DNA of 64,000 bases, from NCBI RefSeq assembly GCF_000242915.1, contig NZ_AFRZ01000001.1, positions 2,232,001-2,296,000 on the forward strand, written 5' to 3'. The translations under genes and the position numbers were made by a program. This stretch comes from Sulfurimonas gotlandica GD1 (lineage in GTDB: Bacteria; Campylobacterota; Campylobacteria; Campylobacterales; Sulfurimonadaceae). The notes under the pieces are model-generated. The model saw only the letters and a program-made list of their open reading frames with translations. It did no database searches and was not told the origin of the DNA. Positions 43,446 through 63,919 of this stretch are shown piece by piece; position 1 is the first letter of the stretch; each line of letters starts with the position of its first letter.

Positions 43446-43521
43446 CACTAATCCAAAAATGGATATCATAGTATCAGAGTATTGCAGATAATACAAAAAT
43501 AATTTAAGCAGGAATTTCTTA

Positions 43522-44199
43522 GTGATACATATTGCAATGGTAGAAGATGATACGGAGTTAGCCGATGTTTTAACTCAGTATCTATCAAAGTTTAACATCT
43601 GTGTTACAAATTATGAAGACCCTTTTATTGCACTTAGTGCTATCGCTTTAAAAGAGTTTGATTTAATAATATTAGATCTTACTCTTCCCGGACTTGATGG
43701 ACTTGAAGTTTGTAAAGAATTAGTTACAAAGTATGACATACCTATAATCATCTCAAGTGCCAGAAGCGATATAGCAGACAAAGTTATAGCACTGGAACTT
43801 GGTGCAGATGATTATCTTCCAAAACCTTATGATCCAAGAGAATTAGAAGTCAGAATCAAAACAATACTTAGAAGATTTAATAAGCAGATGCCAAAGGCTT
43901 TAGATGAGGTAAAAGAGATATTTACTTTAGATGAAGAGAGGCAAGAGATTAAAAAAAACGGCAAGTTTATAAAATTCACTCCCGCAGAATTTCAAATAAT
44001 GTCTCTGATGTGTAAAAGAAAAGGTTTTGTAGTTTCAAGATATGATATTTTGGATAGTTGTGACTTTCTAAATAGCGATGAAGATAGTGGAAGTATAGCG
44101 GTAATAATAAATAGAATTAGACATAAAATAGAAGAAGATTCTAAAAAACCGGAGTACTTTATAACTATTAGAGGTGTGGGGTATAAATTAGTAGAATGA
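43522..44199 (+). CDS. OmpR-family response regulator (system 2)
   Basis: The 225-residue regulator has receiver residues E8, D9-D10 and D52 (LIILDLTLPGLDG), SSARSD and KPYD. The winged-helix domain ends RGVGYKLVE. Translation starts at GTG 43522. The gene overlaps the kinase start by 4 bp. It is a clear paralogue of the regulator at 34163. Confidence 0.94.
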   Translation: MIHIAMVEDDTELADVLTQYLSKFNICVTNYEDPFIALSAIALKEFDLIILDLTLPGLDGLEVCKELVTKYDIPIIISSARSDIADKVIALELGADDYLPKPYDPRELEVRIKTILRRFNKQMPKALDEVKEIFTLDEERQEIKKNGKFIKFTPAEFQIMSLMCKRKGFVVSRYDILDSCDFLNSDEDSGSIAVIINRIRHKIEEDSKKPEYFITIRGVGYKLVE

Positions 44200-45564: not shown

Positions 45565-45604
45565 ATGAATACATATTCACATAATAAAATGAATGTTCAT
45601 TCAT
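45565..45604 (+). promoter_or_regulatory. two ATGAAT-N4-ATTCAT operators at the hyd1 promoter
   Basis: Site A at 45565-45580 is ATGAATACATATTCAC; site B at 45589-45604 is ATGAATGTTCATTCAT. Their starts are 24 bp apart. A TAAAAT -10 candidate (45585-45590) overlaps site B by two bases, the same geometry as at 63241-63260. The position fits repression. The rest of the 210-bp gap (45426-45635) shows no other clear element. Confidence 0.65.
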
Positions 45605-45635: not shown

Positions 45636-46862
45636 ATGATTGAAAAACGAGAGGCCTTAGCAAAAATGTTTAGTGCTAAAGGATCGAAAATTAATACCAA
45701 CCGTGGTGCTGAATATTACGATGCTTTAATGAAAACAATGACTAAAAGGCTAGATGAGCTAGAAAAAACACCAGCCGCGTCTAAAGCATCAATTCACGCT
45801 ATTTTAGATTCAGAAGGATTAGACAGAAGAGATTTTATGAAGTGGGCGAGTGCAGCGTGTGCAGCGTTAATGCTCCCATCTAACTTCACACCTCTTATTG
45901 CAAGGGCAGCTGAGCTTATGAATAGAGTTCCAGTTATATGGATAGAACTTCAAGATTGTGCAGGTAACTCAGAAGCAATCCTAAGAAGTGACGCTCCAAC
46001 AATTGATGAATTGATTCTTGAAACAATTTCATTAGAATTTAACGAAACATTAATGTCAGCAGCTGGTCATCAAGCTGAAGCACATTTAGAAGAGGCTATG
46101 CATACATTTAAGGGTAAATATCTTTGTGTTGTTGAAGGTTCTATTCCTTTAGCTATGAATGGTCTATATGGAACAATCGGTGCAAAGGGTGAGACTTTTG
46201 TAGATCACTTAAACCGAGTTGCAAAAGACAGTGCTGCTGTTGTTGCAGTTGGTACTTGTGCAACATTCGGTGGTGTTCCGGCAGCTTCTCCAAACCCAAC
46301 AGGTGCAGTTGGTGTTCAAGATGTTGTTCGTGGCAAGCCTATTATTAACATTCCTGCTTGTCCTGCAAATCCTGCAAACATTACAGGTACTATACTTCAT
46401 TATGTTCTCTCTGGACAAATTCCAGAACTAGATCACTTAAACCGTCCTAAGTTTGCATTTGGATATAGAATCCATGATAACTGTGAAAGACGTGCGCATT
46501 TTGACGCAGGTGAGTTTGTAGAAGAGTGGGGTGATAAAGGTGCTCAAAACAATTTCTGTCTTTATAAGATGGGTTGTAAAGGTCCTATGACATTTAACAA
46601 CTGTTCAATTGTTAGATACAACAGTGGAACAAACTGGCCTATTGGTGCTGGACACGGTTGTATAGGTTGTTCAGAACCACAATTTTGGGATAAATATGCT
46701 CAAGAGAGACCAATGGCTGATACTCACTTTAAAGCACCAGGCGGCGGAGTAGAAAAAACTGTAGATGAATTTGGTTTAGGACTGCTTACAGCAGCTGGTA
46801 TCGGTATTGGTATTCATGCGGCAGCAAGTGTTATAGCAGGGAAAAAAGAGGGGGATGAGTAG
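45636..46862 (+). CDS. hydA: [NiFe]-hydrogenase 1 small subunit, atypical proximal-cluster motif
   Basis: The 408-residue subunit carries the FeS relay of a membrane-bound uptake hydrogenase. A Tat signal (RRDFMKW, 64-70) sends the folded dimer out of the cytoplasm, and a C-terminal helix (about 383-402) anchors it. The medial and distal ligands are present (RIHDNCERR, CLYKMGC, NNC, GHGCIGC). The proximal motif reads DCAGNSE: Cys108 is kept but Asn111 replaces the second Cys (hyd2 has ECTGCTE). Asp or Asn at this position is known in group 1h and group 2 enzymes. It begins the hyd1 operon behind two ATGAAT operators. Confidence 0.93.
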   Translation: MIEKREALAKMFSAKGSKINTNRGAEYYDALMKTMTKRLDELEKTPAASKASIHAILDSEGLDRRDFMKWASAACAALMLPSNFTPLIARAAELMNRVPVIWIELQDCAGNSEAILRSDAPTIDELILETISLEFNETLMSAAGHQAEAHLEEAMHTFKGKYLCVVEGSIPLAMNGLYGTIGAKGETFVDHLNRVAKDSAAVVAVGTCATFGGVPAASPNPTGAVGVQDVVRGKPIINIPACPANPANITGTILHYVLSGQIPELDHLNRPKFAFGYRIHDNCERRAHFDAGEFVEEWGDKGAQNNFCLYKMGCKGPMTFNNCSIVRYNSGTNWPIGAGHGCIGCSEPQFWDKYAQERPMADTHFKAPGGGVEKTVDEFGLGLLTAAGIGIGIHAAASVIAGKKEGDE

Positions 46863-48614
46863 ATGGCAAGCAAACATATAATAGTAGATCCAATAACAAG
46901 GATTGAAGGACATTTAAGAATAGAAGCAGTTATTGATGAGAATAATGTAATTACAGATGCATTTGCCAGTTCAACAATGTTTAGAGGAATAGAGACAATA
47001 CTAAAAGGTAGAGATCCTAGAGATGCTGGACTTCTTGCAATGAGAATATGTGGTGTTTGTACAGGTACTCACTATCAAAGAAGTATTGAAGCAGTTGAAG
47101 ATGCTTTCAAACTAAAAATCCCTAAAAATGCAAGAATCGTAAGAAACTTGATTCAAGGTGCACTTTATGTACACGATCATGTTGTTCATTTTTATCATCT
47201 TCATGCACTTGACTGGGTAGATATTACATCTGCACTAAAAGCTGATCCAAAACTAGCAGCTGCAGAAGCACTAAAATGGGTAGATACCCCTCATGGAACT
47301 GGTGAAGGTGAACTTAGAGCTATTCAAGAAAGAGTTGGTAAATTTGTAGCACAAGGTCGTCTTGGTATTTTTTCAAACGCGTATTGGGGAAATAAAAACT
47401 ATAAATTATCACCTGAACAAAATCTAGTTGCAGTGGCTCACTACTTACAAGCACTTGATATGCAAAGAGATGCATCTAAAATGATGGCTATCTTTGGCGG
47501 TAAGATGCCTCACCCACAATCGTTAGTAGTTGGTGGTGTAACTTGTGTTCAAGATATTCAAAATCCTGCAAGAATTGCTGAATTTAAATCACTTCTAAAC
47601 AAGTTTAGAAATTTTATTAAAAATGCATATATTCCAGATGTTCTTATGGCTGGTACTGTTTATGCAGATGAGGCTCTTGATGGAACTGGTTCAGGACTTA
47701 AGAACTATATGAGTTATGGTGACTTTAAACTTGATGATACAGGATTTTATACATCATCTCAACTATTCCCAAGCGGTGTAGTACTAAATGGTGATTTGAC
47801 TAAACTTTATCCACTAGATCAAACTAAGATTACAGAAGATGTTTCTCATGCTTGGTATGAAGGTGCAAATGATAAAGGTCTTCACCCGTATGATGGTGTT
47901 ACTAACCCTAAGTATACAGGTTTAGAGAAAAAAGAAGATGGTTACTCATACTTAAAAACTAAAGAAAAATATTCTTGGATTAAGTCACCTCTATATGATG
48001 ACACAAGAATGGAAGTTGGTCCATTGGCTAGAATAGCTGTTGGTCTTGCAGCTGGTGATGAAAATATTACTAAGTATGCAGTTAGTTTTTTAACTAAGCT
48101 AGGAAAGACTTTAGGACTTAAGACTGCTGCTCCTGCATCTGTAATTTTCTCAACTGTAGGAAGAACAGCTGCTCGTGCTATTGAGACAGAGCTAATGGCT
48201 GATGTTATGATGGGCTGGGTTGATGAGTTGGCTGCAAATGTAGCATCTGGAGATATAAGTACTTGGACAGAGTTCGATTTTGACAAAGTATCTAAAGATG
48301 CTAGAGGTTTTGGTATGGCTGAGGCTCCTCGTGGTGGTTTAGGACACTGGGTCGTAATCAAAGACGGTAAGATAGAAAATTATCAAGCAGTTGTTCCATC
48401 AACATGGAATGCAGCTCCAAGAGATTACAAAGACAGAAAAGGTGCTTATGAATCAGCACTTATCGGCACAAAAGTAGCTGATCCTGAACAACCATTAGAG
48501 ATACTAAGAACTATACATAGTTTTGACCCTTGTATAGCGTGTGCTGTACATATTGTGGATACAAAAGGAAGAGAGCTTAGTAGTTTCAAAGTAAACACCA
48601 GCTGTGCCGTTTAA
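46863..48614 (+). CDS. hydB: [NiFe]-hydrogenase 1 large subunit
   Basis: The 583-residue catalytic subunit binds the NiFe(CN)2CO site through RICGVCTGTH (C63, C66, H70) and DPCIACAVH (C557, C560, H563). Twenty residues after His563 form the tail removed by the maturation protease. PRGGLGHWV is also conserved. It is exported with HydA and oxidises H2 at the periplasmic face. It begins directly after the hydA stop codon. Confidence 0.96.
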   Translation: MASKHIIVDPITRIEGHLRIEAVIDENNVITDAFASSTMFRGIETILKGRDPRDAGLLAMRICGVCTGTHYQRSIEAVEDAFKLKIPKNARIVRNLIQGALYVHDHVVHFYHLHALDWVDITSALKADPKLAAAEALKWVDTPHGTGEGELRAIQERVGKFVAQGRLGIFSNAYWGNKNYKLSPEQNLVAVAHYLQALDMQRDASKMMAIFGGKMPHPQSLVVGGVTCVQDIQNPARIAEFKSLLNKFRNFIKNAYIPDVLMAGTVYADEALDGTGSGLKNYMSYGDFKLDDTGFYTSSQLFPSGVVLNGDLTKLYPLDQTKITEDVSHAWYEGANDKGLHPYDGVTNPKYTGLEKKEDGYSYLKTKEKYSWIKSPLYDDTRMEVGPLARIAVGLAAGDENITKYAVSFLTKLGKTLGLKTAAPASVIFSTVGRTAARAIETELMADVMMGWVDELAANVASGDISTWTEFDFDKVSKDARGFGMAEAPRGGLGHWVVIKDGKIENYQAVVPSTWNAAPRDYKDRKGAYESALIGTKVADPEQPLEILRTIHSFDPCIACAVHIVDTKGRELSSFKVNTSCAV

Positions 48615-48624
48615 GGAGCCTGTC

Positions 48625-49320
48625 ATGAGTTATAAAAAAATTGAGAGGATGACCGGATTTATGAGAATCAACCACTGGGTGGTTGCTATATCAATGATCA
48701 TTGCTATTGCAACTGGTCTCTATATCGGTCATCCATATTATCAAAGTTTTATCGCAGATCCTGCGGTTGATAAATATGTAATGGCGTGGAATAGACTAGG
48801 TCACCTTATAGTTGCTATTATCTTTGATGTTAGCAGTATTATTGTCGCTTACTTATACTTCTTTTCAAGATTTGAAAAACCGTATAAAAAGTTAATTCCA
48901 AATGCTAAAAATGTAAAAGAGTTTGTAGATGTATTAATTAACCTTATTACATTAAATCGTGTAAAAGAGTTTGACTCATCTCATACAGATAGTTTTAACT
49001 CTATATTTTTCTTTGTATTTCACATAATGTTAGGTTGGCAGTTGTTTACAGGACTTCAACTATATGTACATGGACTTGCATCTGGACTCAGTTCAATCGG
49101 TTCTTGGTGGCCAACAATGCTTCACTTAACAACAGATTGGACTGTAGCAGTAACTGGCGGAACATATATGGATGTGAGAATCGCACATCACTATACAATG
49201 TATGCTATTATCGCTTGGATTATGTTTCATGTTTATTACCAAATATGGAGAACAATCTTCTGGAAAGAGGGAGATATCAACATTGTTGTTGGTGGAAATA
49301 AGTTTGTAGAAGAAAAATAA
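48625..49320 (+). CDS. hydC: hydrogenase 1 cytochrome b subunit
   Basis: I start at 48625, where AAGGAG is well placed; an in-frame ATG-like extension begins at 48604 inside hydB. The 231-residue membrane protein has four predicted spans with haem-b histidines (for example NHWVVAISMIIAIATGLYIGHP and HHYTMYAIIAWIMFHVYYQIW). It takes electrons from HydA to the menaquinone pool. Tandem terminator hairpins follow immediately. Confidence 0.93.
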   Translation: MSYKKIERMTGFMRINHWVVAISMIIAIATGLYIGHPYYQSFIADPAVDKYVMAWNRLGHLIVAIIFDVSSIIVAYLYFFSRFEKPYKKLIPNAKNVKEFVDVLINLITLNRVKEFDSSHTDSFNSIFFFVFHIMLGWQLFTGLQLYVHGLASGLSSIGSWWPTMLHLTTDWTVAVTGGTYMDVRIAHHYTMYAIIAWIMFHVYYQIWRTIFWKEGDINIVVGGNKFVEEK

Positions 49321-49375
49321 CTTCAAGGTTATTTTTCTTCAATAAGCCAAAAAGAATTATCTCTTTTTGGCTTTT
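49312..49375 (+). terminator. two tandem intrinsic terminators between hydC and hydD (hyd1)
   Basis: The first hairpin has a 10-bp stem (49312-49321 with 49328-49337), includes the hydC stop codon and ends in a T run. The second has a 12-bp stem (49344-49355 with 49362-49373), followed by TTTTTT. They should reduce transcription of hydD and hydE relative to hydABC. Confidence 0.8.
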
Positions 49376-49392
49376 TTAATTTAAGGACAGAT

Positions 49393-49953
49393 ATGAAAAC
49401 AGCAATTGTTGGCGCGGGTACAGTAATTTACCAAGATGAGGGTATAGGTGTATATGCTTCAAAGTATATAGAAGAGAATTATACATTTATGGATGATGTG
49501 ACATTAGTTGATGGCGGAGTACTTGGCTTTCAACTAATGACATACTATCAAGATTATGATAAGGTGATTATACTTGATACTATTACTATGGACGATGAGG
49601 TAGGCTCTATCTACAATCTTCCATCAGAGGAGTTGTTAGGTCTTGGAAGTTATAAGCAGACTGCTCATGAAGTTGAAATAATAGAGATGCTCGAGATTTG
49701 TTCACTCTTAGAGAGAATGGCGGATGTAAATATTGTAGGTATTGTTCCAAAAGATATAGTGAGTGTAAATATAGGTTTGAGTGATGAGATGAAAGAGAAG
49801 TTTCATAGCTTGATAGATGCAGCAGTAGTTGAACTAGATAAATCAGGCATAAAGTACACAAGAAACCCTGAAACAGTAATGTTAGATGATATCATCGAAC
49901 GTTATGCAAATCCACAAAGTGAGTTTAAAAATGGCTATCAAACAAGTAATTAA
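49393..49953 (+). CDS. hydD: hydrogenase 1 maturation endopeptidase
   Basis: The 186-residue protease belongs to the HybD/HyaD family and cuts the C-terminal tail of the large subunit after nickel insertion. The three Ni-sensing residues of the family are present: E16 (YQDEGIGV), D62 (VIILDTI) and H92 (TAHEVEI). It overlaps hydE and lies behind the tandem terminators. The substrate is probably HydB1. Confidence 0.93.
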   Translation: MKTAIVGAGTVIYQDEGIGVYASKYIEENYTFMDDVTLVDGGVLGFQLMTYYQDYDKVIILDTITMDDEVGSIYNLPSEELLGLGSYKQTAHEVEIIEMLEICSLLERMADVNIVGIVPKDIVSVNIGLSDEMKEKFHSLIDAAVVELDKSGIKYTRNPETVMLDDIIERYANPQSEFKNGYQTSN

Positions 49954-51346
49954 ATATAGAAGCGACAGTAAGTATTTTGCAGGATTTTTACAATCTATGA
50001 TAAAAGAGAGTGGTATTGTAGGCAGTGTCTCTCAAGCTGATGACTCTATAGTTATGAGGCTCAACGATACAGATGAAAAAGCTATCGCTGATTTTAGCCA
50101 ACTATCAAATAAATATCTGGCTCACTCTTTGTTTTTGGGTGAGATAGAGACTATACAGGTTGACTCAGAGAGTTTAGAATCAGATTTTAAATCACCAACA
50201 TATAATATATCTGCATGTCCTAGATGTTTAGAACGTTTAACAGATCCTGCTAGTGAAGACTATCTGAATGATTCTCTAAAGTGTACACACTACTCGAACG
50301 AGGAAAATGAAGACTTCCTTGATTCTAACTACTACTCTCCTCATTACAGCGAGGGAAGTGACCTCCTGGTAGTAGATCCAAGTAATATAAACAATCTTTT
50401 TATAATGACAGAAGATGAAATAAAAGCGCTCTTTAGTATAGAAAAACCAACCCTAAAAGTTACTATCAAAGATGAAGTACTAAAAGAGTTAACTGGAAAA
50501 ATATTTATAAATATCAAATCTCCATATAGTGTAAAAAGCAATCTTGTAGCACTAAATGCAAGAGAGAGTGAAGTTGAATATTTGTTTTTCCAAAGAAGTG
50601 ATGATTTAAAAGTAGTAGTTGTTCAAAAAAACACCACTGTTATTAGAGATTCCAGAGGTGTTTCTAAAAAGCTTAAAGAGTTAGATAGCGACAAGACTAT
50701 CAATAGATTTTTAAATATCGCACAAGAAGCAGGATTTGAGAAAGGCTCAATTGCAGCTAGTCTGAGTACAAGAGATGGCATCTCGTTTATAGTTTCAAAT
50801 GAGACTGGAGCTAAAAAAGTTATAACTTTTCAAGACTTTATACTAAAAGATGTTTTAGAGTTGATGAGTAAAGATGAAAACAAGTCAAAACTGCTTCCAA
50901 ACTTTGAGAAAAAGTTTCCTTCTGTAATGAAAGAGCTTAGAGAAAATGATGAGTATGGTTTGTTTGAGACAATATCTTCTATATTAGAGCTAAAAGAGAA
51001 AAACTTTGAGTCAGTAAGTGATAAGTCTTTAGAGTTCCATGGCAATGGCGGACTAAAGATAGACGCAAATTATGGTGATGAAGGTTTTGATTATGTATCT
51101 TTTATAGGCTCTATCATGAGCTTTAAACTTGCAGATACGGATGAACACTACTTAGCATACTCTATTTTTGAAGCTCTTGGCGATATGGCTATTTCAACTT
51201 TAGGCCAGCTAAAGACAAAATTTAAAATTGATAAGTTTGTTATGATGGGTGATATGTTTGAAAATAGTGTGCTTTATAGCCGGATATTAAGTAAGTTTCA
51301 ACTGAGTAATCCATATTTCTCAAAAGGTTTTGCACTAGATGAATAA
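49931..51346 (+). CDS. hydE: HydE-type hydrogenase accessory protein 1 (HypF-related)
   Basis: I start at 49931 (MAIKQVIKYR), by analogy with its paralogue; the open frame extends to 49886. The 471-residue protein keeps a HypF-like zinc-finger start, CPRC (C96, C99) ... KCTH (C118), but the fourth Cys is replaced by His120. The remainder resembles the HypF/TsaD-like half. In Wolinella, hydE belongs to the hydrogenase operon and its role is unclear. It overlaps hydD by 23 bp. Confidence 0.8.
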   Translation: MAIKQVIKYRSDSKYFAGFLQSMIKESGIVGSVSQADDSIVMRLNDTDEKAIADFSQLSNKYLAHSLFLGEIETIQVDSESLESDFKSPTYNISACPRCLERLTDPASEDYLNDSLKCTHYSNEENEDFLDSNYYSPHYSEGSDLLVVDPSNINNLFIMTEDEIKALFSIEKPTLKVTIKDEVLKELTGKIFINIKSPYSVKSNLVALNARESEVEYLFFQRSDDLKVVVVQKNTTVIRDSRGVSKKLKELDSDKTINRFLNIAQEAGFEKGSIAASLSTRDGISFIVSNETGAKKVITFQDFILKDVLELMSKDENKSKLLPNFEKKFPSVMKELRENDEYGLFETISSILELKEKNFESVSDKSLEFHGNGGLKIDANYGDEGFDYVSFIGSIMSFKLADTDEHYLAYSIFEALGDMAISTLGQLKTKFKIDKFVMMGDMFENSVLYSRILSKFQLSNPYFSKGFALDE

Positions 51347-51417
51347 TAGTTCAGGTTTAATTAAAAATGAGAACTAATTTATAGTATAATTGTGTAAGAA
51401 GATAAGGAGAAGATATA

Positions 51418-52005
51418 TTGTTAAGCAAAAAAGAGCAAAAAAAAGAACAAATAATGCAAAGCGCATTAGAACTTTTTTCTGTAAAAGGTTTTTACAACAC
51501 TACTATACCTGATATAGCTAACGCACTAAAGATGAGTGTTGGAAACATGTATAATTACTTTAAGTCAAAAGATATTCTTGCTAAAGAAATTATAAAATAT
51601 ATATCAGTGTATCTAGGTGGAAAGTTAAAAGAGATTAACGAACTAGATATATCTACAGAAGAAAAAACAAGAAAAATAATCGAAGTTTATTTCGAAACTG
51701 CTTCTAAGAAGCCTGAGATGATCGATTATTTTTTAAGAATCTACTTATCAACTCGTGATGTATTTAAAGAGGGCTGTGAAGGGATGATTTGTGTAAACGA
51801 GTTTGTTACAGAGATTATGATCTATTTCGAAGAAGGTGTAAAGTGTGGAGACTTGAGAGATCAAGACTTCTTTAGTGCTTTTGGGCTATTTATGGGTTAC
51901 CTTGGTGGAATGGTTTTCTTAAAAGGTGAAGATGTTTTACCAAAAGAGTTAGATGCTTATGTGGATGATATTTCATATAATATATATAAAGCCCTAAGCG
52001 TTTAA
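51418..52005 (+). CDS. TetR-family regulator encoded with hupSL
   Basis: The 195-residue protein has an N-terminal TetR helix-turn-helix (ALELFSVKGFYNTTIPDIANALKMSVGNMYNYFKSKDIL). The ligand domain contains three Cys residues (GCEGMIC and VKCGD). It starts with TTG at 51418 behind AAGGAGAAG. It lies 6 bp before hupS and is therefore almost certainly in one transcript with it. It is the best candidate in the window to bind the ATGAAT-N4-ATTCAT palindromes, but this is inference. A TATAAT-like stretch near 51380 may give it its own promoter. Confidence 0.88.
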   Translation: MLSKKEQKKEQIMQSALELFSVKGFYNTTIPDIANALKMSVGNMYNYFKSKDILAKEIIKYISVYLGGKLKEINELDISTEEKTRKIIEVYFETASKKPEMIDYFLRIYLSTRDVFKEGCEGMICVNEFVTEIMIYFEEGVKCGDLRDQDFFSAFGLFMGYLGGMVFLKGEDVLPKELDAYVDDISYNIYKALSV

Positions 52006-52011
52006 AATATT

Positions 52012-52893
52012 ATGAGCAACAAGGTGAGAGTGTTATGGCTTAGCTCCATAGCTTGTAACGGTAACACTCACTCCTTTTTAAACTATCCATTTATGGAACA
52101 ATTTCTAAACGATTTTGAATTCATATATCACCCAGTTATTGACTCCAACTACTCCCTTAAAGAAATTGTCTCAGAGACAATAGCCTGTGATATCATGCTT
52201 ATTGAAGGTACGATATCTGATGATTTTAAAAGAGCTGATGTTCTTGTTGTTGATATCATAAAAAAGTATGCAAAGATAGTTAAAAAAATTGTTACGGTAG
52301 GGACTTGTGCAACTTTTGGAGGAATATTCAAAGAGAGTGATTATGAAAACGCTACAGGACTTCATTTCGATAGGAATAAGCCTATAGATAGTTTTAAAAA
52401 TCTGCTTGATAAGACTATTTCTGTTTCAGGATGCCCAGTCCATCCTGAGACTCTGGTCAATACACTCTATGCAATTAAGAAAAGTGTTGATTTACAACTG
52501 GATAATTTCCTAAGACCAAAAGAGTTTTATGCTTATACAGTTCATAATGGTTGTACAAGAAACGAATACTTTGAATATAAAGTAGATAATCATAAGTATG
52601 GTGAGCTAGAGGGTTGTATGTTTTACGATCATGGATGCCAAGCACCATTTACACATGCAAGCTGTAACAAAACACTATGGAATGAGGTTAACTCAAAAAC
52701 TAGGGCAGGGATGCCATGTGTTGGATGTACCGAGCCTACATTTCCAAAAGAAAATCTTTTTAATACTAAAAAGAACATGGGTATACCACAAGATCTTCCA
52801 ATAGGTGTAGGTAAAAGAACATATCTTACTCTAGCTGGTATAACAAAAGCATTTACTATAGATAGATTAGAAAAGAAGTTATTTGATGATTGA
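52012..52893 (+). CDS. hupS: group 2-type cytoplasmic [NiFe]-hydrogenase small subunit
   Basis: The 293-residue subunit lacks a Tat signal and C-terminal anchor, so it should remain in the cytoplasm. The proximal motif ACNGNTHSF (C15, Asn18) is the group 2 form. GTCATFGG and SGCPVHPE follow, then HNGCTRNEYF, EGCMFYDHGCQAPFTHASC and MPCVGCTEPTF for the other clusters. Group 2 includes cyanobacterial uptake enzymes and H2-sensing enzymes. It overlaps hupL by 8 bp. Confidence 0.92.
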   Translation: MSNKVRVLWLSSIACNGNTHSFLNYPFMEQFLNDFEFIYHPVIDSNYSLKEIVSETIACDIMLIEGTISDDFKRADVLVVDIIKKYAKIVKKIVTVGTCATFGGIFKESDYENATGLHFDRNKPIDSFKNLLDKTISVSGCPVHPETLVNTLYAIKKSVDLQLDNFLRPKEFYAYTVHNGCTRNEYFEYKVDNHKYGELEGCMFYDHGCQAPFTHASCNKTLWNEVNSKTRAGMPCVGCTEPTFPKENLFNTKKNMGIPQDLPIGVGKRTYLTLAGITKAFTIDRLEKKLFDD

Positions 52894-54145
52894 GCTAATA
52901 GAAAAAATAGAGGGTGAAGCAAAACTAAATTTTAGTTTTGCTGGCGAAGAGATTGATTTTGTAGATATAGAGTTTATGACTGCAAGAAATATAGAAAAGA
53001 TATTAGAAGGCAAGTCTGCTTTAGATGCACTTGTAATAAACCCACGAGTATGTGGCATCTGTGGACATGCTCATCTAATAGCAACAGTCAAGGCTTTAGA
53101 AGATTGTTATGAAAATATAGAAATCTCCAAAAAAGCTGAAATTATTAGAGAACTTACTCTTACCTTTGAGCTAATACAAAACCACTTCAAATGGTTCTAT
53201 CTTACTATGAGACCTCTTTTTGGTAAAAAACAAGAGGTTTTAAAAGCTACATATCCAACTCAACTTATGGCAAAGGCAATAGCTGTCTTTGGAGGACAAT
53301 ATCCACATACTTCTTATGCTATTGTTGGTGGAGTTGTTTGTGATATTACAGAAATAGATATTATAAAAATAAAACATTACATAGAAGAGACTATAAAGTT
53401 TTTTGAGACTAATTTAGTACAAGCAGATACAAAAGACTTTCTAGTCTGTGACAATGTAGATAAAGTATTAAAGAAAAATGGTGACTTACCAGATATATTA
53501 AGAGAGATAAAGAAAAAGAAATATCTGGACCATGGCAAATCATATGACAGATTTATAGCATTTGGTGAGAATAGTTACTTTACAAAGGGCAAGTCACACA
53601 AGACAATAACTACACATAATATCTCCATAGATTATGTAAAAGAGCAAGATAATTTAAACTCTTTAGCAAAAAATGTGACTTATAAAGATAAATATTATGA
53701 AGTCGGTCCATTGGCTCGGGCAATGATAAATAAGGTTCCACTTGTTAAAGATTCGCATAGAAGATATGGAGATAATATCTTTAGTAGAATAATCGCTAGA
53801 GTTTGTGAAATACCGCAACTATTAAACCATTCAAAAGAGCTTTTAGAGAAACTAGACTTAAGTGAACCATCTTATATCGAGCCTAATATTGATATATCTC
53901 AAATAAATGCATCTGGAGAGAGCGCTGTAGAAGCAGCAAGAGGATCATTGATTCATAAAGTAGAGTTAGAAAATGGAATCATCAAAAATTATGAGATAAT
54001 AACTCCAACTCAGTGGAACTTAGGAAATGGAACAAGAGAAAATCTTGGAGTTTCACAACAGGCGATGGTTGGTTTAAAAGATGTTAAAACTGCCGAACTT
54101 GTATTTAAAACTTTTGATGTCTGTTCTGTTTGTACTACACATTAA
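52886..54145 (+). CDS. hupL: group 2-type [NiFe]-hydrogenase large subunit without a C-terminal tail
   Basis: I start at ATG 52886; an in-frame TTG lies one codon upstream. The 419-residue subunit has RVCGICGHAH (C56, C59, H63) and ends exactly with DVCSVCTTH (C413, C416, H419). It thus has no tail for an endopeptidase to remove, as in the regulatory H2-sensing hydrogenases HupV and HoxC. No third protease gene is present, consistent with that. It is short for a large subunit. A hairpin follows at 54166. Confidence 0.92.
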   Translation: MIELIEKIEGEAKLNFSFAGEEIDFVDIEFMTARNIEKILEGKSALDALVINPRVCGICGHAHLIATVKALEDCYENIEISKKAEIIRELTLTFELIQNHFKWFYLTMRPLFGKKQEVLKATYPTQLMAKAIAVFGGQYPHTSYAIVGGVVCDITEIDIIKIKHYIEETIKFFETNLVQADTKDFLVCDNVDKVLKKNGDLPDILREIKKKKYLDHGKSYDRFIAFGENSYFTKGKSHKTITTHNISIDYVKEQDNLNSLAKNVTYKDKYYEVGPLARAMINKVPLVKDSHRRYGDNIFSRIIARVCEIPQLLNHSKELLEKLDLSEPSYIEPNIDISQINASGESAVEAARGSLIHKVELENGIIKNYEIITPTQWNLGNGTRENLGVSQQAMVGLKDVKTAELVFKTFDVCSVCTTH

Positions 54146-54344: not shown

Positions 54345-54360
54345 CTGAATGATTATTCAT
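54345..54360 (+). promoter_or_regulatory. ATGAAT-N4-ATTCAT-like operator at the hyd2 promoter
   Basis: CTGAATGATTATTCAT matches the hyd1 and nickel-permease palindromes at 11 of the 12 arm positions. A TATAAA -10 candidate is at 54332-54337, so the site falls near the start of transcription. An extra ATGAAT half-site follows at 54363. The rest of the gap 54185-54344 is AT-rich without clear features. Confidence 0.6.
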
Positions 54361-54390: not shown

Positions 54391-55542
54391 ATGGTGAGTG
54401 ACACTCTATATAAAAAGTTGTCAGCTAGAGTCAACGAATTATCAAAGTTGCCTAAACTAGATGATCAAAAATCAATTCCAAAATTGATAGAAGAAAATGG
54501 GTTTTCTCGTAGAGAGTTTATGACATGGGCTGGTACTATGACAGCTATGTTAGCGCTTCCAGCGAGTTATACACCGTTGATAGCTAAAGCAGCAGAGGTA
54601 GCAGATAGACTTCCTGTTATCTGGTTGCACATGGCAGAATGTACAGGTTGTACTGAATCTTTATTAAGATCAGCATCTCCAAGTATAGACAGTTTGATTT
54701 TTGATCATATATCTTTAGAGTATCAAGAGACGATAATGTCTGCAGCCGGTTGGCAAGCAGAACAAAATCTTGAGAACGCTATAGAAAAATACAAAGATAG
54801 ATACGTATTAATGGTAGAGGGTGGTATTCCTCACGGAAAAGGTAGTCATTTCTTGACAATTGGCGGACATGGTAAGACAGGTGAGCAGAGTGCAATTGAT
54901 GCAGCTGAGCATGCAGCAGCAATCTTTGCTATTGGTACTTGTTCTTCTTTTGGTGGTGTTCAAGCAGCAGCTCCAAACCCTACAAATGCTACTTCACTTA
55001 GTAATGTTACTAGTAAGCCTGTTATTAATGTTCCAGGTTGTCCACCGAGTGAGAGCAACATAGTGGGAACACTACTGCACTTTCTACTTTATGGATCACT
55101 TCCAGCACTAGATGCTTACAACAGACCAAAGTGGGCATATGGACTAAGAATCCATGACATGTGTGAAAGACGTGGTCACTTTGATGCTGGTGAATTCGTA
55201 GAACAATTCGGTGATGATGGAGCTAAAAATGGCTTCTGTCTGTACAAAGTAGGCTGTAAAGGTCCTTATACATTTAACAACTGTTCTAGACAGAAGTTCA
55301 ATGAAGGTACATCTTGGCCAGTTCAAGCCGGACATGGTTGTGCTGGATGTAGTGAACCGGATTTCTGGGATACTATGGGTGTTTTACATGAACCTCTTGC
55401 CGACAGACTATTTCACACAACATTTGGTGGACTGGGCTCAGATGCAACGGCAGATAAGATTGGTCTAGGACTACTTACTGTTACAGCAGTGGGAATCGCA
55501 GCACATGCAGCAATATCAGCTGTTAAGAAACCAAAAGAATAA
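54391..55542 (+). CDS. hydA: [NiFe]-hydrogenase 2 small subunit
   Basis: The 383-residue subunit has the Tat motif SRREFM (39-44) and a canonical proximal motif AECTGCTES (C84, C87). GTCSSFGG, PGCPPSESN, the distal HDMCERRGHFD and CLYKVGC, and the medial GHGCAGC complete the relay. A C-terminal helix (VTAVGIAAHAAISAV) anchors it. It looks like a standard group 1b enzyme and differs from the hyd1 subunit at the second proximal Cys. The start is supported by AAAAGGAG. Confidence 0.95.
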   Translation: MVSDTLYKKLSARVNELSKLPKLDDQKSIPKLIEENGFSRREFMTWAGTMTAMLALPASYTPLIAKAAEVADRLPVIWLHMAECTGCTESLLRSASPSIDSLIFDHISLEYQETIMSAAGWQAEQNLENAIEKYKDRYVLMVEGGIPHGKGSHFLTIGGHGKTGEQSAIDAAEHAAAIFAIGTCSSFGGVQAAAPNPTNATSLSNVTSKPVINVPGCPPSESNIVGTLLHFLLYGSLPALDAYNRPKWAYGLRIHDMCERRGHFDAGEFVEQFGDDGAKNGFCLYKVGCKGPYTFNNCSRQKFNEGTSWPVQAGHGCAGCSEPDFWDTMGVLHEPLADRLFHTTFGGLGSDATADKIGLGLLTVTAVGIAAHAAISAVKKPKE

Positions 55543-55555
55543 TCGAGGAGTTAAT

Positions 55556-57289
55556 ATGTCAAAAAGAGTAATAGTTGATCCTATAACAAGAATAGAAGGA
55601 CACTTAAGAGCCGAGGTTATTGTTGGTGATGACGGAATTGTTCAAGATGCTTTCGTATCTTCAACATTATGGAGAGGATTAGAAGTAATCGCAAAAGGGA
55701 GAGATCCTAGAAACGTACCTCTAATGATGCAGAGAATTTGTGGTGTTTGTACATACTCTCACTACCTAAAAAGTACTATGGCAGTTGAAGATGCACTGGG
55801 AATAAAGATTCCTTACAATGCTGAGTTAGTAAGATCACTAATGAATGCAGCACTGTTTATTCATGATCATGTTGTTCACTTCTACCACTTACACGGTGTT
55901 GACTGGGTTGATATTGTATCAGCACTTAGTGCGGACCCTGCTAAAGCAAGTAAGTTAGCATTTAAATATTGTGACAATCCAATTGGTACAGGTGAAAATG
56001 AACTTAAATTAGTTAAAGAGAAAATAGGTAAGTTTGCTAAGAATCCTCAAGGACTTGGGCCATTTGCTAACGCATACTGGGGACATGGAACATATAGATT
56101 GACTCCAGAACAAAACTTGATTGCGCTTTCTCACTACTTAAAAGCATTAGAAGTTCAAAGAACAGCTGCTCAACTTTTAGCTATCTTTGGTGGTAAAAAT
56201 CCACACCCACAAAGTCTTGCGGTTGGTGGTGTAACTTGTGTTATGGATATTCTTAACCCAGCGAAAATGGGTGAATACATGACTAAGTTTAAAGTACTTG
56301 CTAATTTTATTAACAATGCTTACTACCCAGATATCGTTATGGCTGCTGAAATGTATAAAACTGAAGGTTCAGTCGTTAAACCAGCTGGTGTTAAAAACTT
56401 CATGGCACATGAAGATTTTATTGTAGGTCGTGGTGACAGACTTTTTGAAAGTGGAATCGTTTATGATGGAGATTTAAGTAAAGTTTTCGAAATAGATGAA
56501 GATCTAATTACAGAAGAAGCTACGCACTCATGGTACCAAAATGATAAAGCACTTCACCCATACGATGGTGAGACAGATCCTAAATATACAGGTTTTGTAG
56601 ATGGTGAAACTGTTGGACCAGATGGCAAAATGATTCATTCTAAGCAGATTAATGAAAAAGAAAAATATTCTTGGATCAAGTCACCTAGATATGATGGTAA
56701 ACCAATGGAAGTTGGGCCTCTGGCATGTATGGTTGTTAGTTATGCAAAAGGTAATGCAAAAGTTCAAAAAGTTGTAAATGACTTCTTAAAAACTACAGGT
56801 CTTCCTGCAGGAGCTCTCTTTACTACACTAGGTAGAACAGCAGCGAGAATGTTACAGGCAAAACTAATCGGTGATAATGCACTAATCGCATTTAACAACC
56901 TGATTGAAAATCTAAAAGTTGACCAAGAGACTTGTGCTACTTATACTATCGATAAAGACAAAGAGTATAAAGGTAGAGGTATCGGTGATGTTCCTCGTGG
57001 AATGTTGAGTCACTGGGTTAGAATCAAAAATGGTGTTGTTGAAAACTATCAGGCTGTTGTTCCTTCTACTTGGAATGCAGGACCTATGGATGCTAACGGT
57101 GTAAAAGGCCCTTATGAAGCTGATTTAATCGGTCTTAAAATTGAAAATTTAACACAACCACTAGAGATTATCAGAATTATTCACTCTTATGACCCATGTA
57201 TTGCATGTGCAGTTCACGTGATGGATACAAAAGGAAATCAACTAAGTGAGTACAAACTAGATCCTATTTATGGTGGATGTAGCGTATAA
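55556..57289 (+). CDS. hydB: [NiFe]-hydrogenase 2 large subunit
   Basis: I start at 55556 (MSKRVIVDPITRIEGH) behind GAGGAG; the open frame extends into hydA. The 577-residue catalytic subunit has RICGVCTYSH (C62, C65, H69) and DPCIACAVH (C548, C551, H554), then a 23-residue cleavable tail. The gap to hydA is 13 bp and to hydC 11 bp. Confidence 0.96.
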   Translation: MSKRVIVDPITRIEGHLRAEVIVGDDGIVQDAFVSSTLWRGLEVIAKGRDPRNVPLMMQRICGVCTYSHYLKSTMAVEDALGIKIPYNAELVRSLMNAALFIHDHVVHFYHLHGVDWVDIVSALSADPAKASKLAFKYCDNPIGTGENELKLVKEKIGKFAKNPQGLGPFANAYWGHGTYRLTPEQNLIALSHYLKALEVQRTAAQLLAIFGGKNPHPQSLAVGGVTCVMDILNPAKMGEYMTKFKVLANFINNAYYPDIVMAAEMYKTEGSVVKPAGVKNFMAHEDFIVGRGDRLFESGIVYDGDLSKVFEIDEDLITEEATHSWYQNDKALHPYDGETDPKYTGFVDGETVGPDGKMIHSKQINEKEKYSWIKSPRYDGKPMEVGPLACMVVSYAKGNAKVQKVVNDFLKTTGLPAGALFTTLGRTAARMLQAKLIGDNALIAFNNLIENLKVDQETCATYTIDKDKEYKGRGIGDVPRGMLSHWVRIKNGVVENYQAVVPSTWNAGPMDANGVKGPYEADLIGLKIENLTQPLEIIRIIHSYDPCIACAVHVMDTKGNQLSEYKLDPIYGGCSV

Positions 57290-57300
57290 AAGGAGAAGCT

Positions 57301-58002
57301 ATGATTAGTGAAGCTAATAACGACTTAGAATTAGAACACGAAATAGAACAAGAATTGGAATTTTCGTCTGCTTATAGATGGCAACATTGGATAAGAGCAG
57401 TTTCAATTGTTGTCTTGACAATAACTGGATTTTATATAGCTGTTCCTTTTTTAACACCGGCGGTAAATGCTGATCCGACAAATTTTATGCAGGCTTTGAT
57501 GAGATCATGGCACATAATTTTCGGTTTCGTACTAATATCTGCGGTGATGTTTAAAAGTTATCTTTTCATGTTTGGAAGAAAGCATGACATGGAAAGAGCG
57601 GCATTTAAAGATATATTGAATCCAAAAATTTGGATTAAACAAATAGGCTATTACATGCTTATTTCTAAGCATCCAAAACTGAGTGGGGTTTATAACCCGA
57701 TTCAGTTTATGGCTTATGCAACGTTATATATTATGTTGTTTGGTCTGATTATTACAGGACTTATTCTTTATGTTCATGTATATCATGACGGACTAGGTGC
57801 ATACCTTTATGATGTAATGAAAAGCATCGAGGTTATGATTGGTGGACTTGCAAATGTTCGCATTATTCACCACATCCTTACATGGGGTGTAATGTTATTT
57901 GTACTTGGTCATATTTATATGGCTATTTACAATGCTGTCTTTGGTAAAGAAGGCGGAATGGATGCTATTTTCAGTGGTATGAAGTGGCATAAAAAACACT
58001 AG
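57301..58002 (+). CDS. hydC: hydrogenase 2 cytochrome b subunit
   Basis: The 233-residue membrane protein starts with an acidic cytoplasmic stretch (SEANNDLELEHEIEQELEF). Four predicted spans follow with conserved haem histidines (RWQHWIRAVSIVVLTITG, MRSWHIIFGFVLI, HHILTWGVMLFVLGHIYMAIY). It passes electrons from HydA2 to quinone. A terminator hairpin follows within 10 bp. Confidence 0.93.
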   Translation: MISEANNDLELEHEIEQELEFSSAYRWQHWIRAVSIVVLTITGFYIAVPFLTPAVNADPTNFMQALMRSWHIIFGFVLISAVMFKSYLFMFGRKHDMERAAFKDILNPKIWIKQIGYYMLISKHPKLSGVYNPIQFMAYATLYIMLFGLIITGLILYVHVYHDGLGAYLYDVMKSIEVMIGGLANVRIIHHILTWGVMLFVLGHIYMAIYNAVFGKEGGMDAIFSGMKWHKKH

Positions 58003-58004
58003 CT

Positions 58005-58028
58005 AAAAGCAAGGATTTCCTTGCTTTT
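58005..58028 (+). terminator. intrinsic terminator between hydC and hydD (hyd2)
   Basis: A strong stem (GCAAGG with CCTTGC, extended by flanking AAAA/TTTT) is followed by a T run. It lies at the same operon position as the tandem terminators of hyd1, between the structural and maturation genes. Confidence 0.8.
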
Positions 58029-58037
58029 GTTAGAAGA

Positions 58038-58096
58038 AATAAGATTTTTATAAACAATCATAATGAGACTAAAATGATTGTTTACAAAATCTTATT
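58038..58096 (+). repeat. long inverted repeat upstream of hydD (hyd2)
   Basis: Arms of 24 nt (58038-58061) and 23 nt (58074-58096) are complementary except for about one indel, with a 12-nt loop. It comes directly after the terminator and 25 bp before hydD. It could be an RNA-processing or stabilising stem that separates the hydDE transcript, or a second terminator. Confidence 0.7.
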
Positions 58097-58121
58097 TATG
58101 ATTTATATATAGAGGTGAAAC

Positions 58122-58676
58122 ATGAAAATATTAATACTAGGCATAGGAAATGTACTCTTTGGCGATGAAGGTATAGGTGTTCATTTAGCTAATTATTTGG
58201 ATGAGAAGTATAACTTTATATCTGATGAACATACAGTAGATGTAGTAGACGGTGGAACTCTAGCTCAGATATTGATACCTATCATTACAGACTATGACAG
58301 AGTCTTACTCATAGACTGTGTTAATGTTCTTGATGGTGACATCGGAGATGTATACAGTTTTGACTTTGACGCTGTTCCTGATTTTATCACTTGGCAAGGA
58401 AGCGCTCATGAAGTTGAGATGCTACAAACTCTACAGATGATAGAGATGCTAGGTGACCTGCCTCCTGTAAAAATTGTTGGTGTCATACCTTATGTAATCG
58501 GTGAAGACACAACTTTTACTATTACAAATGAGGTTTTAGAAGCTAGTAAGACAATGGAGCACTCTATCATTAACTATTTAAAAGATTTAAAGGTAGAGAC
58601 AACTCTAAAAAATAGTGGTGCAATCTTGCAAGAAGTTGCAAGAACATCATACTTAAGGGGCACACAATGGTATTAG
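58122..58676 (+). CDS. hydD: hydrogenase 2 maturation endopeptidase
   Basis: The 184-residue protease has the family's nickel-binding residues E16 (FGDEGIGV), D65 (VLLIDCV) and H96 (SAHEVEM). It should remove the tail of HydB2. It overlaps hydE2 by 10 bp and lies behind the terminator and the inverted repeat. Confidence 0.94.
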   Translation: MKILILGIGNVLFGDEGIGVHLANYLDEKYNFISDEHTVDVVDGGTLAQILIPIITDYDRVLLIDCVNVLDGDIGDVYSFDFDAVPDFITWQGSAHEVEMLQTLQMIEMLGDLPPVKIVGVIPYVIGEDTTFTITNEVLEASKTMEHSIINYLKDLKVETTLKNSGAILQEVARTSYLRGTQWY

Positions 58677-60340
58677 AACTATTATTTGAATATTCGTCTT
58701 CTTCACTGGTATACGATAAGTTACTACTGAGAAAGCTTGAAGAGTCAAAACTTGAAGGTAGACTTGTTAAAACGGACAAAGATATTAAGTTATATGTTGA
58801 AGCTGATGATAGTGATGAGTTAGAGTTGTTCGCTAATGAGCTCTCACTAGAGCTGCCTCACTCTATTTTCTTGCGTAACACAGAAGTTAAAGTTGTAGAT
58901 GCACTGCCTGATAATGATTTTATTTTACCTCAGAGTGAAAAGTTGGCTATGCCATTTTGTCCAAGTTGTTTGAGTAAGGTTTTAGATGAATCAAGCCAAG
59001 ACTACTATAACCCGTATTGTGAATGTGAAGTGTGTGGATATGAAGCAGATGGAAAGAGCGGAAACTATCATAGTCTGTTTGAGCAAATAGCAAACGCTAT
59101 TAGCAGGGACTCTGTAGTAAAGGTAAATACATTTTACGGAGAGTATTACTTAGGTAAACTAAATGAAAAATGTAATGACATCTCTTTTGATATTTTAAGT
59201 TATGACCTGGCTACTATCTCAAAGTACACAAATGTAACAACACCTGAAACAGTTGCTTTAGGTGCGATTGAAAAACCACTTATAGGTCTAAAAACAAACC
59301 TTAAATTTAAAATGGATTTTGAAGGTGTAAAAGAAGAGCTGTTAAGATTCAAACTTGCAGATGACTTTATTTTGCACCTTACTTTAGTAGAGCTACATAA
59401 GCTTGGCGTTGATTGTGTTTTTATAACTAAAGATGAGATGAAATATGATACTGCTCTTCTTTTAGCTGATTTTAAAGAGAGTATGGAGCCAATAGAGTGT
59501 GTTGTTAGTGCGAAAAACATAGTTATTCTTCGTGGTACTAAAGGTCTTCCGACGTTTGAGCTTACAAATGAAGCAGTCATCCCATACATAGGGACATTTA
59601 ACTCTGTAATAAAAGAACATAACTTTTCAGATAAAACAGTTGTTGGACTCAATATAAGTAAGGATTCCCATAACAACATACTTGTATATGGTAAGAAGTT
59701 CGGACTCATTGAGTACTTGTCTTTTAAGTCTGAGTATAGCTCAGTTGAAGAGATTTTTAAAGCAATAGCACAGACAAATGAGTCAGGTATAAAACTTTTA
59801 ACTAATTACAAAAGTAAATTTACAGAGCTTTATGAAAAAGTTTCTTTGATTACATTTGATGAAAAAGAGCTAAATATTTATAAACTATGGGGAATTATTT
59901 CCATTATTTTAGGGTATAGTAACTCTAATGATATTTATGAATCAGCGGATATACTAGAGAATAATGCAAAATCTTTTGTAGGTACAAAAGGACCAAGAAT
60001 AGATTATAAACTGCAAAATATTAAATCAAAAGTTTATCTGGATCCATTGATGGTAATCAGAACAGCGATGACTTTTAAACTTGCCGGAGTTGATAGTCTA
60101 TGTTTATCATATGGAGTGGTTGAGAGTTTTGTAGAGTTCTTGTCAGGTCAGCTTGATGAGATAAAACAAAACATGAATAATGATGTCGTTGTTGCATCTG
60201 GTTCACTGCTTGGGAACAAACATTTATTTAGTAAGTTAGATAAAGAAGTTTCAGTAAATCATGAACTATATTTCAACAAAGAATTACCGGTAGATGGGAT
60301 AAACATTAGATATGGCGGAAATGAGCTACTTCACAACTAA
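58667..60340 (+). CDS. hydE: HydE-type hydrogenase accessory protein 2 (HypF-related)
   Basis: The 557-residue protein resembles the HydE1 protein but is longer. Its zinc-finger start is complete: CPSC (C98, C101) ... CECEVC (C118, C120, C123). The rest resembles the HypF-like C-terminal half (for example VVVASGSLLGNKHLFSKL at the end). Function in hydrogenase assembly is inferred from the operon position and the Wolinella name. It overlaps hypF by 29 bp. Confidence 0.82.
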   Translation: MVLELLFEYSSSSLVYDKLLLRKLEESKLEGRLVKTDKDIKLYVEADDSDELELFANELSLELPHSIFLRNTEVKVVDALPDNDFILPQSEKLAMPFCPSCLSKVLDESSQDYYNPYCECEVCGYEADGKSGNYHSLFEQIANAISRDSVVKVNTFYGEYYLGKLNEKCNDISFDILSYDLATISKYTNVTTPETVALGAIEKPLIGLKTNLKFKMDFEGVKEELLRFKLADDFILHLTLVELHKLGVDCVFITKDEMKYDTALLLADFKESMEPIECVVSAKNIVILRGTKGLPTFELTNEAVIPYIGTFNSVIKEHNFSDKTVVGLNISKDSHNNILVYGKKFGLIEYLSFKSEYSSVEEIFKAIAQTNESGIKLLTNYKSKFTELYEKVSLITFDEKELNIYKLWGIISIILGYSNSNDIYESADILENNAKSFVGTKGPRIDYKLQNIKSKVYLDPLMVIRTAMTFKLAGVDSLCLSYGVVESFVEFLSGQLDEIKQNMNNDVVVASGSLLGNKHLFSKLDKEVSVNHELYFNKELPVDGINIRYGGNELLHN

Positions 60341-63240: not shown

Positions 63241-63260
63241 TATAATGAATACGTATTCAT
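63241..63260 (+). promoter_or_regulatory. promoter with perfect ATGAATACGTATTCAT operator
   Basis: TATAAT (63241-63246) overlaps by two bases the perfect 16-bp palindrome at 63245-63260. AAAAAGGA follows before the ATG at 63278. The palindrome matches the hyd1 and hyd2 sites, which links nickel supply and maturation genes to the hydrogenases. Confidence 0.75.
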
Positions 63261-63277
63261 AAAAAGGAATTTTGCAC

Positions 63278-63919
63278 ATGGAAAATTTAGGATTACTTCT
63301 TATATTCTGGTATGGAATCTTACATGCATTTGGACCAGATCACCTAACAGCAATAGCAGATTTCTCTATTGGCAAGAGTAAAAAAAAGACTATGACTATT
63401 ACAACTCTTTTTGCTATTGGTCATGGCTTGACACTTTTTATATTTGCAAAGATTTTAGATACTTACAATATCAGTGAGTCGATACTTGGGTATGGAGATA
63501 TTATCTCTGCATCTGTAATATTGGCGATGGGTATTTATCTTCTATATATGGTTTTTAACGATCGTATTCAACTTAAGAAACATATTCACGACGGTAAAGA
63601 ACATATTCATATCTGGTTTGGAAAAAATCATGAACATGATAACCGTGATACAGCTTCGGCATTTACTGTTGGAGCACTTATGGGAATCGGTGGAGTAAGA
63701 GGGATGCTTGTTACTCTTGGTATGGTCGAGGCAAACAGTGTTGATATGACAATGGTACTGGCATTTTCTCTTGGTGTTATGGTTATCTTCGTAGGTTTTG
63801 GTAGTGTGATATTGTATATCAATAAAAATCTATTAAACTCAAAACAAAATTTAAAAAGAGTATTTGCAACGGCTGGTGTAATATCAGTAGTTGTAGGCTC
63901 AAACATGCTTTTAGCATAG
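63278..63919 (+). CDS. nickel-permease-like membrane protein (NicO/UreH type)
   Basis: I start at 63278, with AAAAAGGA upstream; an in-frame TTG is at 63272. The 213-residue protein has about six spans. The first contains HAFGPDHLTAIADF, resembling the metal-binding H-A-x4-D-H motif of nickel/cobalt permeases. A cytoplasmic His-rich loop (KKHIHDGKEHIHIWFGKNHEHD) could bind metal. It precedes hypB by 23 bp and shares the hydrogenase operator, so nickel uptake is the likely role. Confidence 0.75.
   Translation: MENLGLLLIFWYGILHAFGPDHLTAIADFSIGKSKKKTMTITTLFAIGHGLTLFIFAKILDTYNISESILGYGDIISASVILAMGIYLLYMVFNDRIQLKKHIHDGKEHIHIWFGKNHEHDNRDTASAFTVGALMGIGGVRGMLVTLGMVEANSVDMTMVLAFSLGVMVIFVGFGSVILYINKNLLNSKQNLKRVFATAGVISVVVGSNMLLA

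Follow-up and report, generated by a model that had tools for sequence, protein, structure and literature searches.

The 64-kb window of the Sulfurimonas gotlandica GD1 genome analysed here (positions 2232001–2296000 of a single 2.95-Mb contig) carries a hydrogenase island in which tetR, the gene for a TetR-family repressor, directly precedes hupS and hupL, which encode the subunits of a [NiFe] hydrogenase. We suggest, with a probability of roughly 0.64, that these genes form a hydrogen-control unit that works without a histidine kinase: the TetR protein would repress hydrogenase (hyd) and maturation (hyp) genes through palindromic operators, and HupSL would be its H2-responsive partner. Comparison across genomes strongly supports the DNA half of this putative unit. 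HupSL as the H2-sensing partner of TetR is the best explanation, and the most economical reading, that we can offer for the other half.

In the window, tetR (51418..52005, forward strand, as are hupS, hupL, the palindromes and the target operons below) starts with TTG, and its product matches Pfam TetR_N (E 9e-13). As originally predicted, its stop codon lies 6 bp before the ATG of hupS at 52012. The small subunit gene (52012..52893; Oxidored_q6 and NiFe_hyd_SSU_C) is followed by hupL (52886..54145; NiFeSe_Hases), for which ATG at 52886 is preferred over TTG at 52883. A survey of 248 Campylobacterales genomes found HupL in 115, a close TetR ortholog in 120 and both in 114; the 120 are strong matches, genomes with weak or paralogous matches only having been dropped from a tally of 136 at 1e-8. 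The two genes share a contig in 108 genomes, and in all 108 they are adjacent, on the same strand and with TetR first; in the remaining six of the 114 they lie on different contigs. The commonest gene order is tetR-hupS-hupL-hydA-hydB-hydC, and the tetR-hupS and hupS-hupL frames (with starts chosen by script) mostly overlap or nearly touch. HupL without TetR was found in one genome only (G109), whose contig starts inside hupS. Six genomes have TetR without a HupL match, four of them being contig ends that still show hupS; in G147 and G231 no hupSL was seen, and tetR is retained 1.6 kb and 0.3 kb upstream of hydA. The tetR-hupSL-hyd cassette is plasmid-borne in S. paralvinellae (NZ_CP041407) and Sulfurovum mangrovi (NZ_CP087125), where the TetR is annotated merely as TetR/AcrR family. 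Our comparison shows a conserved arrangement, and tetR-hupS-hupL is apparently a control unit that can be transferred.

The two proteins are also inherited together where their genes are not linked. TetR was detected in 58 of 136 Aquificota genomes (E ≤1e-40) and HupL in 56 (E ≤1e-60): 54 have both, 4 only TetR, 2 only HupL and 76 neither. The 54 pairs comprise 21 that are adjacent, 12 on the same contig but 11.6–734 kb apart, and 21 on different contigs. The unit is intact in Nautiliaceae (three loci, L315–L317) and Hydrogenothermaceae (L320, L321 and L325). Aquificaceae loci contain hupSL with no adjoining TetR; that these lineages lack the regulator altogether was ruled out, since TetR is encoded elsewhere in 10/10 Aquificota genomes searched. 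Among genomes with group 1 hydA, the counts for both, TetR only, HupL only and neither are 50, 3, 0 and 39 in Aquificota and 113, 4, 1 and 81 in Campylobacterales, indicating that the association does not merely reflect both proteins following H2 oxidizers. Because P-values are inflated by shared ancestry, more weight falls on the recurrence in two phyla and on the persistence of the association where linkage has been lost. In 23 Aquificota genomes hand-picked because a single contig carries both tetR and hydA, the two genes are 0.1–1.1 kb apart in 8, 3.2–5.1 kb in 8 and >50 kb in 7, and one of the close promoters (L392) bears an exact copy of the palindrome described below. From the co-occurrence and these distances, TetR appears to be inherited along with HupSL and is often placed near hydA.

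The DNA half of the proposed unit centres on a palindrome, TGAATnnnnATTCA, which we scored on 10 bases with a cut-off of at least 9/10 and dinucleotide shuffles as controls. Palindromes had been predicted at three hydrogenase-related promoters, and all were found; the hydA1 promoter has two, one of which had been named. These are TGAATACATATTCA (45566..45579) and TGAATGTTCATTCA (45590..45603), upstream of the presumed target operon hydA1-hydB1-hydC1-hydD1 (45636..49953). The hydA2 promoter bears TGAATGATTATTCA (54346..54359), in a position conserved upstream of hydA, before hydA2-hydB2-hydC2-hydD2 (54391..58676; group 1 hydrogenase, cytochrome b and protease), also a presumed target. The fourth, TGAATACGTATTCA (63246..63259), precedes a nicO-like membrane protein gene (63272..63919; weak NicO/DsbD_2 matches under cut-off), the first of an operon whose hypB, hypC and hypD were read downstream in a fetched locus (L353). 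Across the whole genome TGAATNNNNATTCA shows no excess, occurring nine times versus ten for the reversed control; four of the nine occurrences are within ~18 kb of the island (binomial P ~2e-7, for a region picked post hoc).

Presence of the palindrome upstream of hydA depends on presence of TetR in our comparison. Within 300 bp upstream of hydA, 94 of 99 loci with TetR had at least 9/10 matches and 64 were exact (5.2 and 0.13 in shuffles), whereas only 3 of 60 genomes without TetR reached 9/10, one of them exactly, which is the chance level (2.7 in shuffles; Fisher P for the contrast 2.5e-33, ignoring shared ancestry). The 99 promoters are fetched loci in which hydA follows tetR with 300 bp of upstream sequence available, including G147 and G231, both of which carry an exact palindrome despite having no hupSL; the 60 were drawn from the 82 hydA-bearing genomes without TetR, among those listed with coordinates. 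In the hupL-hydA gap itself (88 loci, 50–400 bp), 55 loci have an exact site and 84 reach 9/10, compared to 0.25 and ~3 in shuffles. The fetched loci contain another twelve hydA genes, of which eight have an exact site, one has 9/10 and three have none, and seven loci that carry a pair of hyd sets (family f9, assigned by inference to Arcobacteraceae; Arcobacter butzleri itself is outside the sample) have an exact site at the second hydA and 8–10 of 10 at the first. The pattern extends to the nicO-like gene: with TetR, its promoter has an exact site in 20/22 and at least 9/10 in 22/22, versus 0/5 exact and 1/5 with 9/10 without TetR (51 genomes have the gene; 30 were taken as loci and 27 scored, three not being scorable). 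This gene belongs to a separate operon, with hypB after it in 8/8 loci inspected; in most cases it is separated from tetR by several to 42 kb or is on a different contig. Taken together, these comparisons make it very probable that hydABC and hydrogenase maturation are under the control of TetR. A literature search (titles and abstract beginnings, with few full texts) returned nothing on the operator, regulon or the Cys pair described below.

Other features of the site were less consistent. Autoregulation of tetR was considered weak, with matches of at least 9/10 in only 14 of 118 upstream regions (3.2 in shuffles); half of the 14 share one form, TGAATaytCATGCA. The window's tetR is among them, its best match (9/10 at 51340–51353) overlapping the stop codon of the preceding gene. 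A fixed −10 box was likewise set aside as merely suggestive: the position at which TANNNT occurs most often is 8 bases upstream of the palindrome, in 28/94 cases. Exact palindromes also occur at C1:461352 (L349) and C1:2513880 (L352), upstream of methyl-accepting-chemotaxis-like and small cytochrome-c-like genes read from open reading frames, which are possible further members of the regulon.

The TetR protein has an ordinary fold and an invariant pair of Cys residues. Its AlphaFold2 model (mean predicted local distance difference test, pLDDT, 89) shows the TetR fold, its Protein Data Bank (PDB) neighbours are ordinary TetR-family proteins (template-modelling score up to 0.80), and no NCBIfam model was reached at cut-off. 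The only conserved Cys residues, C120 and C125 (window numbering; C120-x4-C125 codons at 51775..51792), were located by ortholog alignment in a loop between helices 99–115 and 127–142. They are invariant in 116/116 aligned orthologs and in all 61 rows of a second alignment, and a strict pattern recovered the pair in 33/35 Aquificota loci (L399 and L414 being unmatched). A block of ten residues with a mean pLDDT of 53 either is residues 111–120 or adjoins them; high conservation of the loop together with low confidence in its model would be in keeping with a site at which a partner or cofactor is required. The corresponding region of the repressor after which the family is named relays ligand binding to the DNA heads. 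The alignment contains no invariant or nearly invariant His that could form a nickel site.

Fifteen paralogs of this TetR differ in the Cys loop: L336 and L337 have CX5C, five have CX4C three residues earlier and eight have neither. To describe the paralogs as lacking the Cys pair would be too strong, given that 2/15 keep it with one extra residue and 5/15 in shifted form. L336 and L337 each lie immediately behind a hypF-like gene of a hyd cluster. Among the paralogs with an altered pair, L337, L346 and L347 adjoin group-4-like hydrogenase genes (on a Pfam basis for L346 and L347 only), while L343 and L344 do not; in L346 (6394-12125) and L347 the cluster includes a flavoprotein. These three paralogs perhaps represent a second pairing of a TetR with a hydrogenase.

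HupSL has the features of a cytoplasmic hydrogenase. HupS gave no match to a twin-arginine translocation (Tat) signal, whereas the hydA1 product does, in keeping with the cytoplasmic location originally predicted. In HupL, C56, C59, C413 and C416 (the CxxC pairs of motifs L1 and L2) and R352 are invariant in 26 aligned sequences, and a protein with both motifs and this Arg, which has a functional role in [NiFe] hydrogenases, should handle H2. HupL ends at the L2 motif (...DVCSVCTTH-stop) with no tail, while the window's HydB proteins extend 20 and 23 residues past it. Tail length is 0 in 107/111 orthologs (the other four are cut or unreadable), and HupL is tail-less in 77/80 of a set that includes Aquificota relatives with hupSL away from tetR. 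The original prediction took the missing tail as a likeness to regulatory hydrogenases. That likeness, to HoxC, holds, but every HupL with a readable end is tail-less, also where tetR does not adjoin, so the trait is general in the clade and not a diagnostic mark of a sensor. The nearest relatives of HupL outside Campylobacterota are in Aquificota, with 36–41% identity and likewise no tail, and it is by these relatives that we describe HupSL as group 2d-like. The narrow gas channel of sensor hydrogenases is formed by Ile and Phe; at the corresponding positions, HupL has the Ile of CGIC in 109/109 and mostly Thr or Val where the Phe would be expected. The proximal-cluster motif of HupS is CNGN in most sequences, resembling the CSGN of 7utd, the hydrogenase-2 small subunit (mycobacterial Huc) that is its closest relative of solved structure.

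These observations can be combined into a mechanism. TetR would bind the TGAATnnnnATTCA palindromes upstream of hydABC(D) and nicO-hypBCD and keep both repressed, while HupSL, cytoplasmic, present at low level and mostly outside the control of this operator, would act as its partner. Oxidation of H2 by HupSL would alter TetR; in the simplest case HupSL would reduce, or dock at, the invariant Cys-x4-Cys loop that joins helices 6 and 7. TetR would then release the DNA to allow production of the respiratory hydrogenase and its maturation factors. The prediction of a new type of H2-responsive control is borne out by comparison for the TetR-HupSL association and the TetR-dependent palindromes; we infer that TetR binds the DNA and acts as a repressor and, as the best available account, that HupSL senses H2 and signals to TetR, with the Cys loop as receiver. 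In a more specific version, HupSL would pass electrons from H2 directly to TetR as terminal acceptor, without kinase or phosphorylation, in two phyla and partly on plasmids, and the Cys-x4-Cys loops (two per dimer) would work as a redox switch or coordinate a metal or iron–sulfur centre. We regard this version as tentative and somewhat doubtful.

If the proposal is correct, a hydrogenase can serve in H2 sensing without a histidine kinase, and there would be an explanation for how many Campylobacterota and Aquificota control H2 oxidation. According to HydDB, the role of group 2d is unresolved between supply of reductant for carbon fixation and regulation (PMC5037454), and the palindrome, regulon and co-inheritance described here bear on that choice.

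Several observations weigh against HupSL as an H2 sensor acting through TetR. The position that is Gln in sensor hydrogenases is His in 104/109 HupL sequences, including that of the window, and Gln in five; HupS lacks the proximal motif of HoxB; the Aquificota relatives share the missing tail; and A. aeolicus hydrogenase III has been treated in print as a working enzyme. TetR has no HupL match in four Aquificota genomes (G284, G286, G309, with a broken frame, and G348), and the TetR proteins of G147 and G231 keep their Cys pair without hupSL, suggesting that TetR may function without HupSL. In G091, a congener of G231, hydA is preceded by an exact site although TetR is absent. Transcription of hydB in Sulfurospirillum multivorans was not significantly H2-dependent (PMC5357620), nor was that of hynAB in Sulfurospirillum hDNRA2, in a comparison of H2 with formate (PMC12286921), although its authors state that formate itself gives rise to H2. 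In favour of the proposal, Arcobacter butzleri hDNRA1 increased both hynAB sets and decreased the group 2d huaSL with H2 (PMC12286921, 2025 ISME Journal), though in a comparison that also altered electron donor and nitrogen reaction. The words 'TetR', 'regulator' and 'sensing' are absent from the text of that study. Finally, a response regulator/kinase pair at 43522-45425, ~6 kb upstream of tetR-hupSL, could be an alternative controller of hyd. Together with a gene for an LTXXQ protein it occupies 42960-45425, upstream of hydA1; we did not count it as part of the unit, as response regulator or kinase matches lie near tetR in few other loci (at least nine).

An alternative, which we consider unlikely, is that TetR controls hyd and hyp by another signal (redox state, a metabolite, or nickel via the Cys pair) and that HupSL is an ordinary enzyme of the same H2 toolkit, supplying low-potential electrons, for instance to ferredoxin for the reductive tricarboxylic acid cycle. 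Such an electron-supply role has been proposed in print for A. aeolicus and S. denitrificans, TetR is kept without HupSL in a few genomes, and a nickel signal would fit a regulon that holds a weakly NicO-like protein and hypB. However, pairing of TetR with HupSL far exceeds the expectation based on hydA, since 39 Aquificota and 81 Campylobacterales genomes with hydA have neither protein; very low expression of HupSL in S. multivorans (PMC5357620) also argues against this reading, and the absence of a nearly invariant His from TetR against nickel. It is quite improbable that TetR is a local repressor of hupSL with little to do with hydABC: gene order, a published suggestion for S. multivorans (PMC5357620) and the 9/10 match upstream of the window's tetR favour this, but sites are enriched at hydA (94/99) and nicO-hyp rather than upstream of tetR (14/118), and two genomes without hupSL retain TetR and the hydA site. 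Least probable of all is that the palindrome belongs to another TetR-family protein and is linked to this one indirectly, for although the paralogs (40–48% identity) have the same recognition-helix sequence and L343 and L344 carry exact palindromes just upstream of themselves, paralogs occur in only 10/248 genomes among the matches listed, and the palindrome tracks this ortholog at both hydA and nicO-hyp promoters.

The proposed TetR-HupSL unit resembles the HoxBC/HoxJ/HoxA system (group 2b) in its tail-less large subunit (HoxC of Cupriavidus necator ends at the L2 motif, as does HupL), a regulator gene directly upstream and a nickel transporter in the cluster. The C-terminal stretch of HupS is common to HoxB and cannot be aligned with the group 1 small subunit. 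On pHG1 the order is sigma-54 regulator, small subunit, large subunit, ATP-binding protein and HoxN/HupN/NixA transporter, the first four being HoxA, HoxB, HoxC and HoxJ. The differences are substantial: HupL and HoxC are 26% identical and HupS and HoxB 31%, HoxBC has the Gln and another proximal motif where HupSL mostly has His and CNGN, and the adjoining regulator is a sigma-54 activator for HoxBC but a TetR for HupSL. Replacement of the conserved His by Gln is a feature of sensor hydrogenases (PMC5665086), and by its sequence HupL does not belong with the group 2b sensors of the HoxC type. The neighbour is, as predicted, a one-component TetR rather than a kinase: within the window, no kinase gene is next to tetR-hupSL (the rest of the genome was not searched for kinases). 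The group 2d 'Aquificae-type' HuaSL is similar in having the tail-less Aquificota relatives of HupL, and the Arcobacter and Sulfurospirillum members have been named group 2d huaSL (PMC12286921); a point of difference is that HupSL of Campylobacterales stands beside TetR in 108/108 same-contig cases. Bacillus FadR and LuxR/SmcR/HapR have a fold like that of TetR here at ~20% identity. The FadR operator, TGAATGA...TCATTCA, is similar to our palindrome, though the regulons of FadR and LuxR/SmcR/HapR are unrelated.

That a TetR gene lies beside hupSL is already noted in print: Kruse et al. (2017) described it upstream of hupSL in S. multivorans, possibly repressing hupSL (PMC5357620). The arrangement is the same as in our window, and the relevant sections of that paper hold no operator, regulon or co-occurrence. 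Transcripts of hupL in S. multivorans were near or below detection (PMC5357620), HupSL is reported missing from Sulfurospirillum proteomes (PMC6242987), and Sulfurimonas denitrificans is described as having no soluble H2-uptake activity (PMC4149538), all of which would fit a scarce sensor. The genome paper of Nautilia profundicola terms its group 2 enzyme H2-sensing (PMC2628731), and a review of Sulfurimonas weighs sensing against a catalytic role (PMC4584964).

In the window, the two group 1 operons flank tetR-hupS-hupL, and the island also contains hypF and the nicO-like gene followed by hypB, hypC and hypD. The genome encodes three full-length [NiFe] large subunits besides HupL, matching the three group 1 enzymes on record for S. 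gotlandica. A hydrogenase-cluster protein at 49886-51346 has relatives in many loci and no Pfam or NCBIfam match, and a second, weakly HypF-like protein (58667-60340), adjoining the full HypF, accompanies the hydA2-type operon in many loci. On the reverse strand, an open reading frame at 62500-63159 encodes a protein that has no Pfam match and an N-terminus like a zinc ribbon; its relatives adjoin tetR-hupSL in two loci (L076 and L136). A 'transposase' occupies a comparable position on the plasmid of S. paralvinellae.

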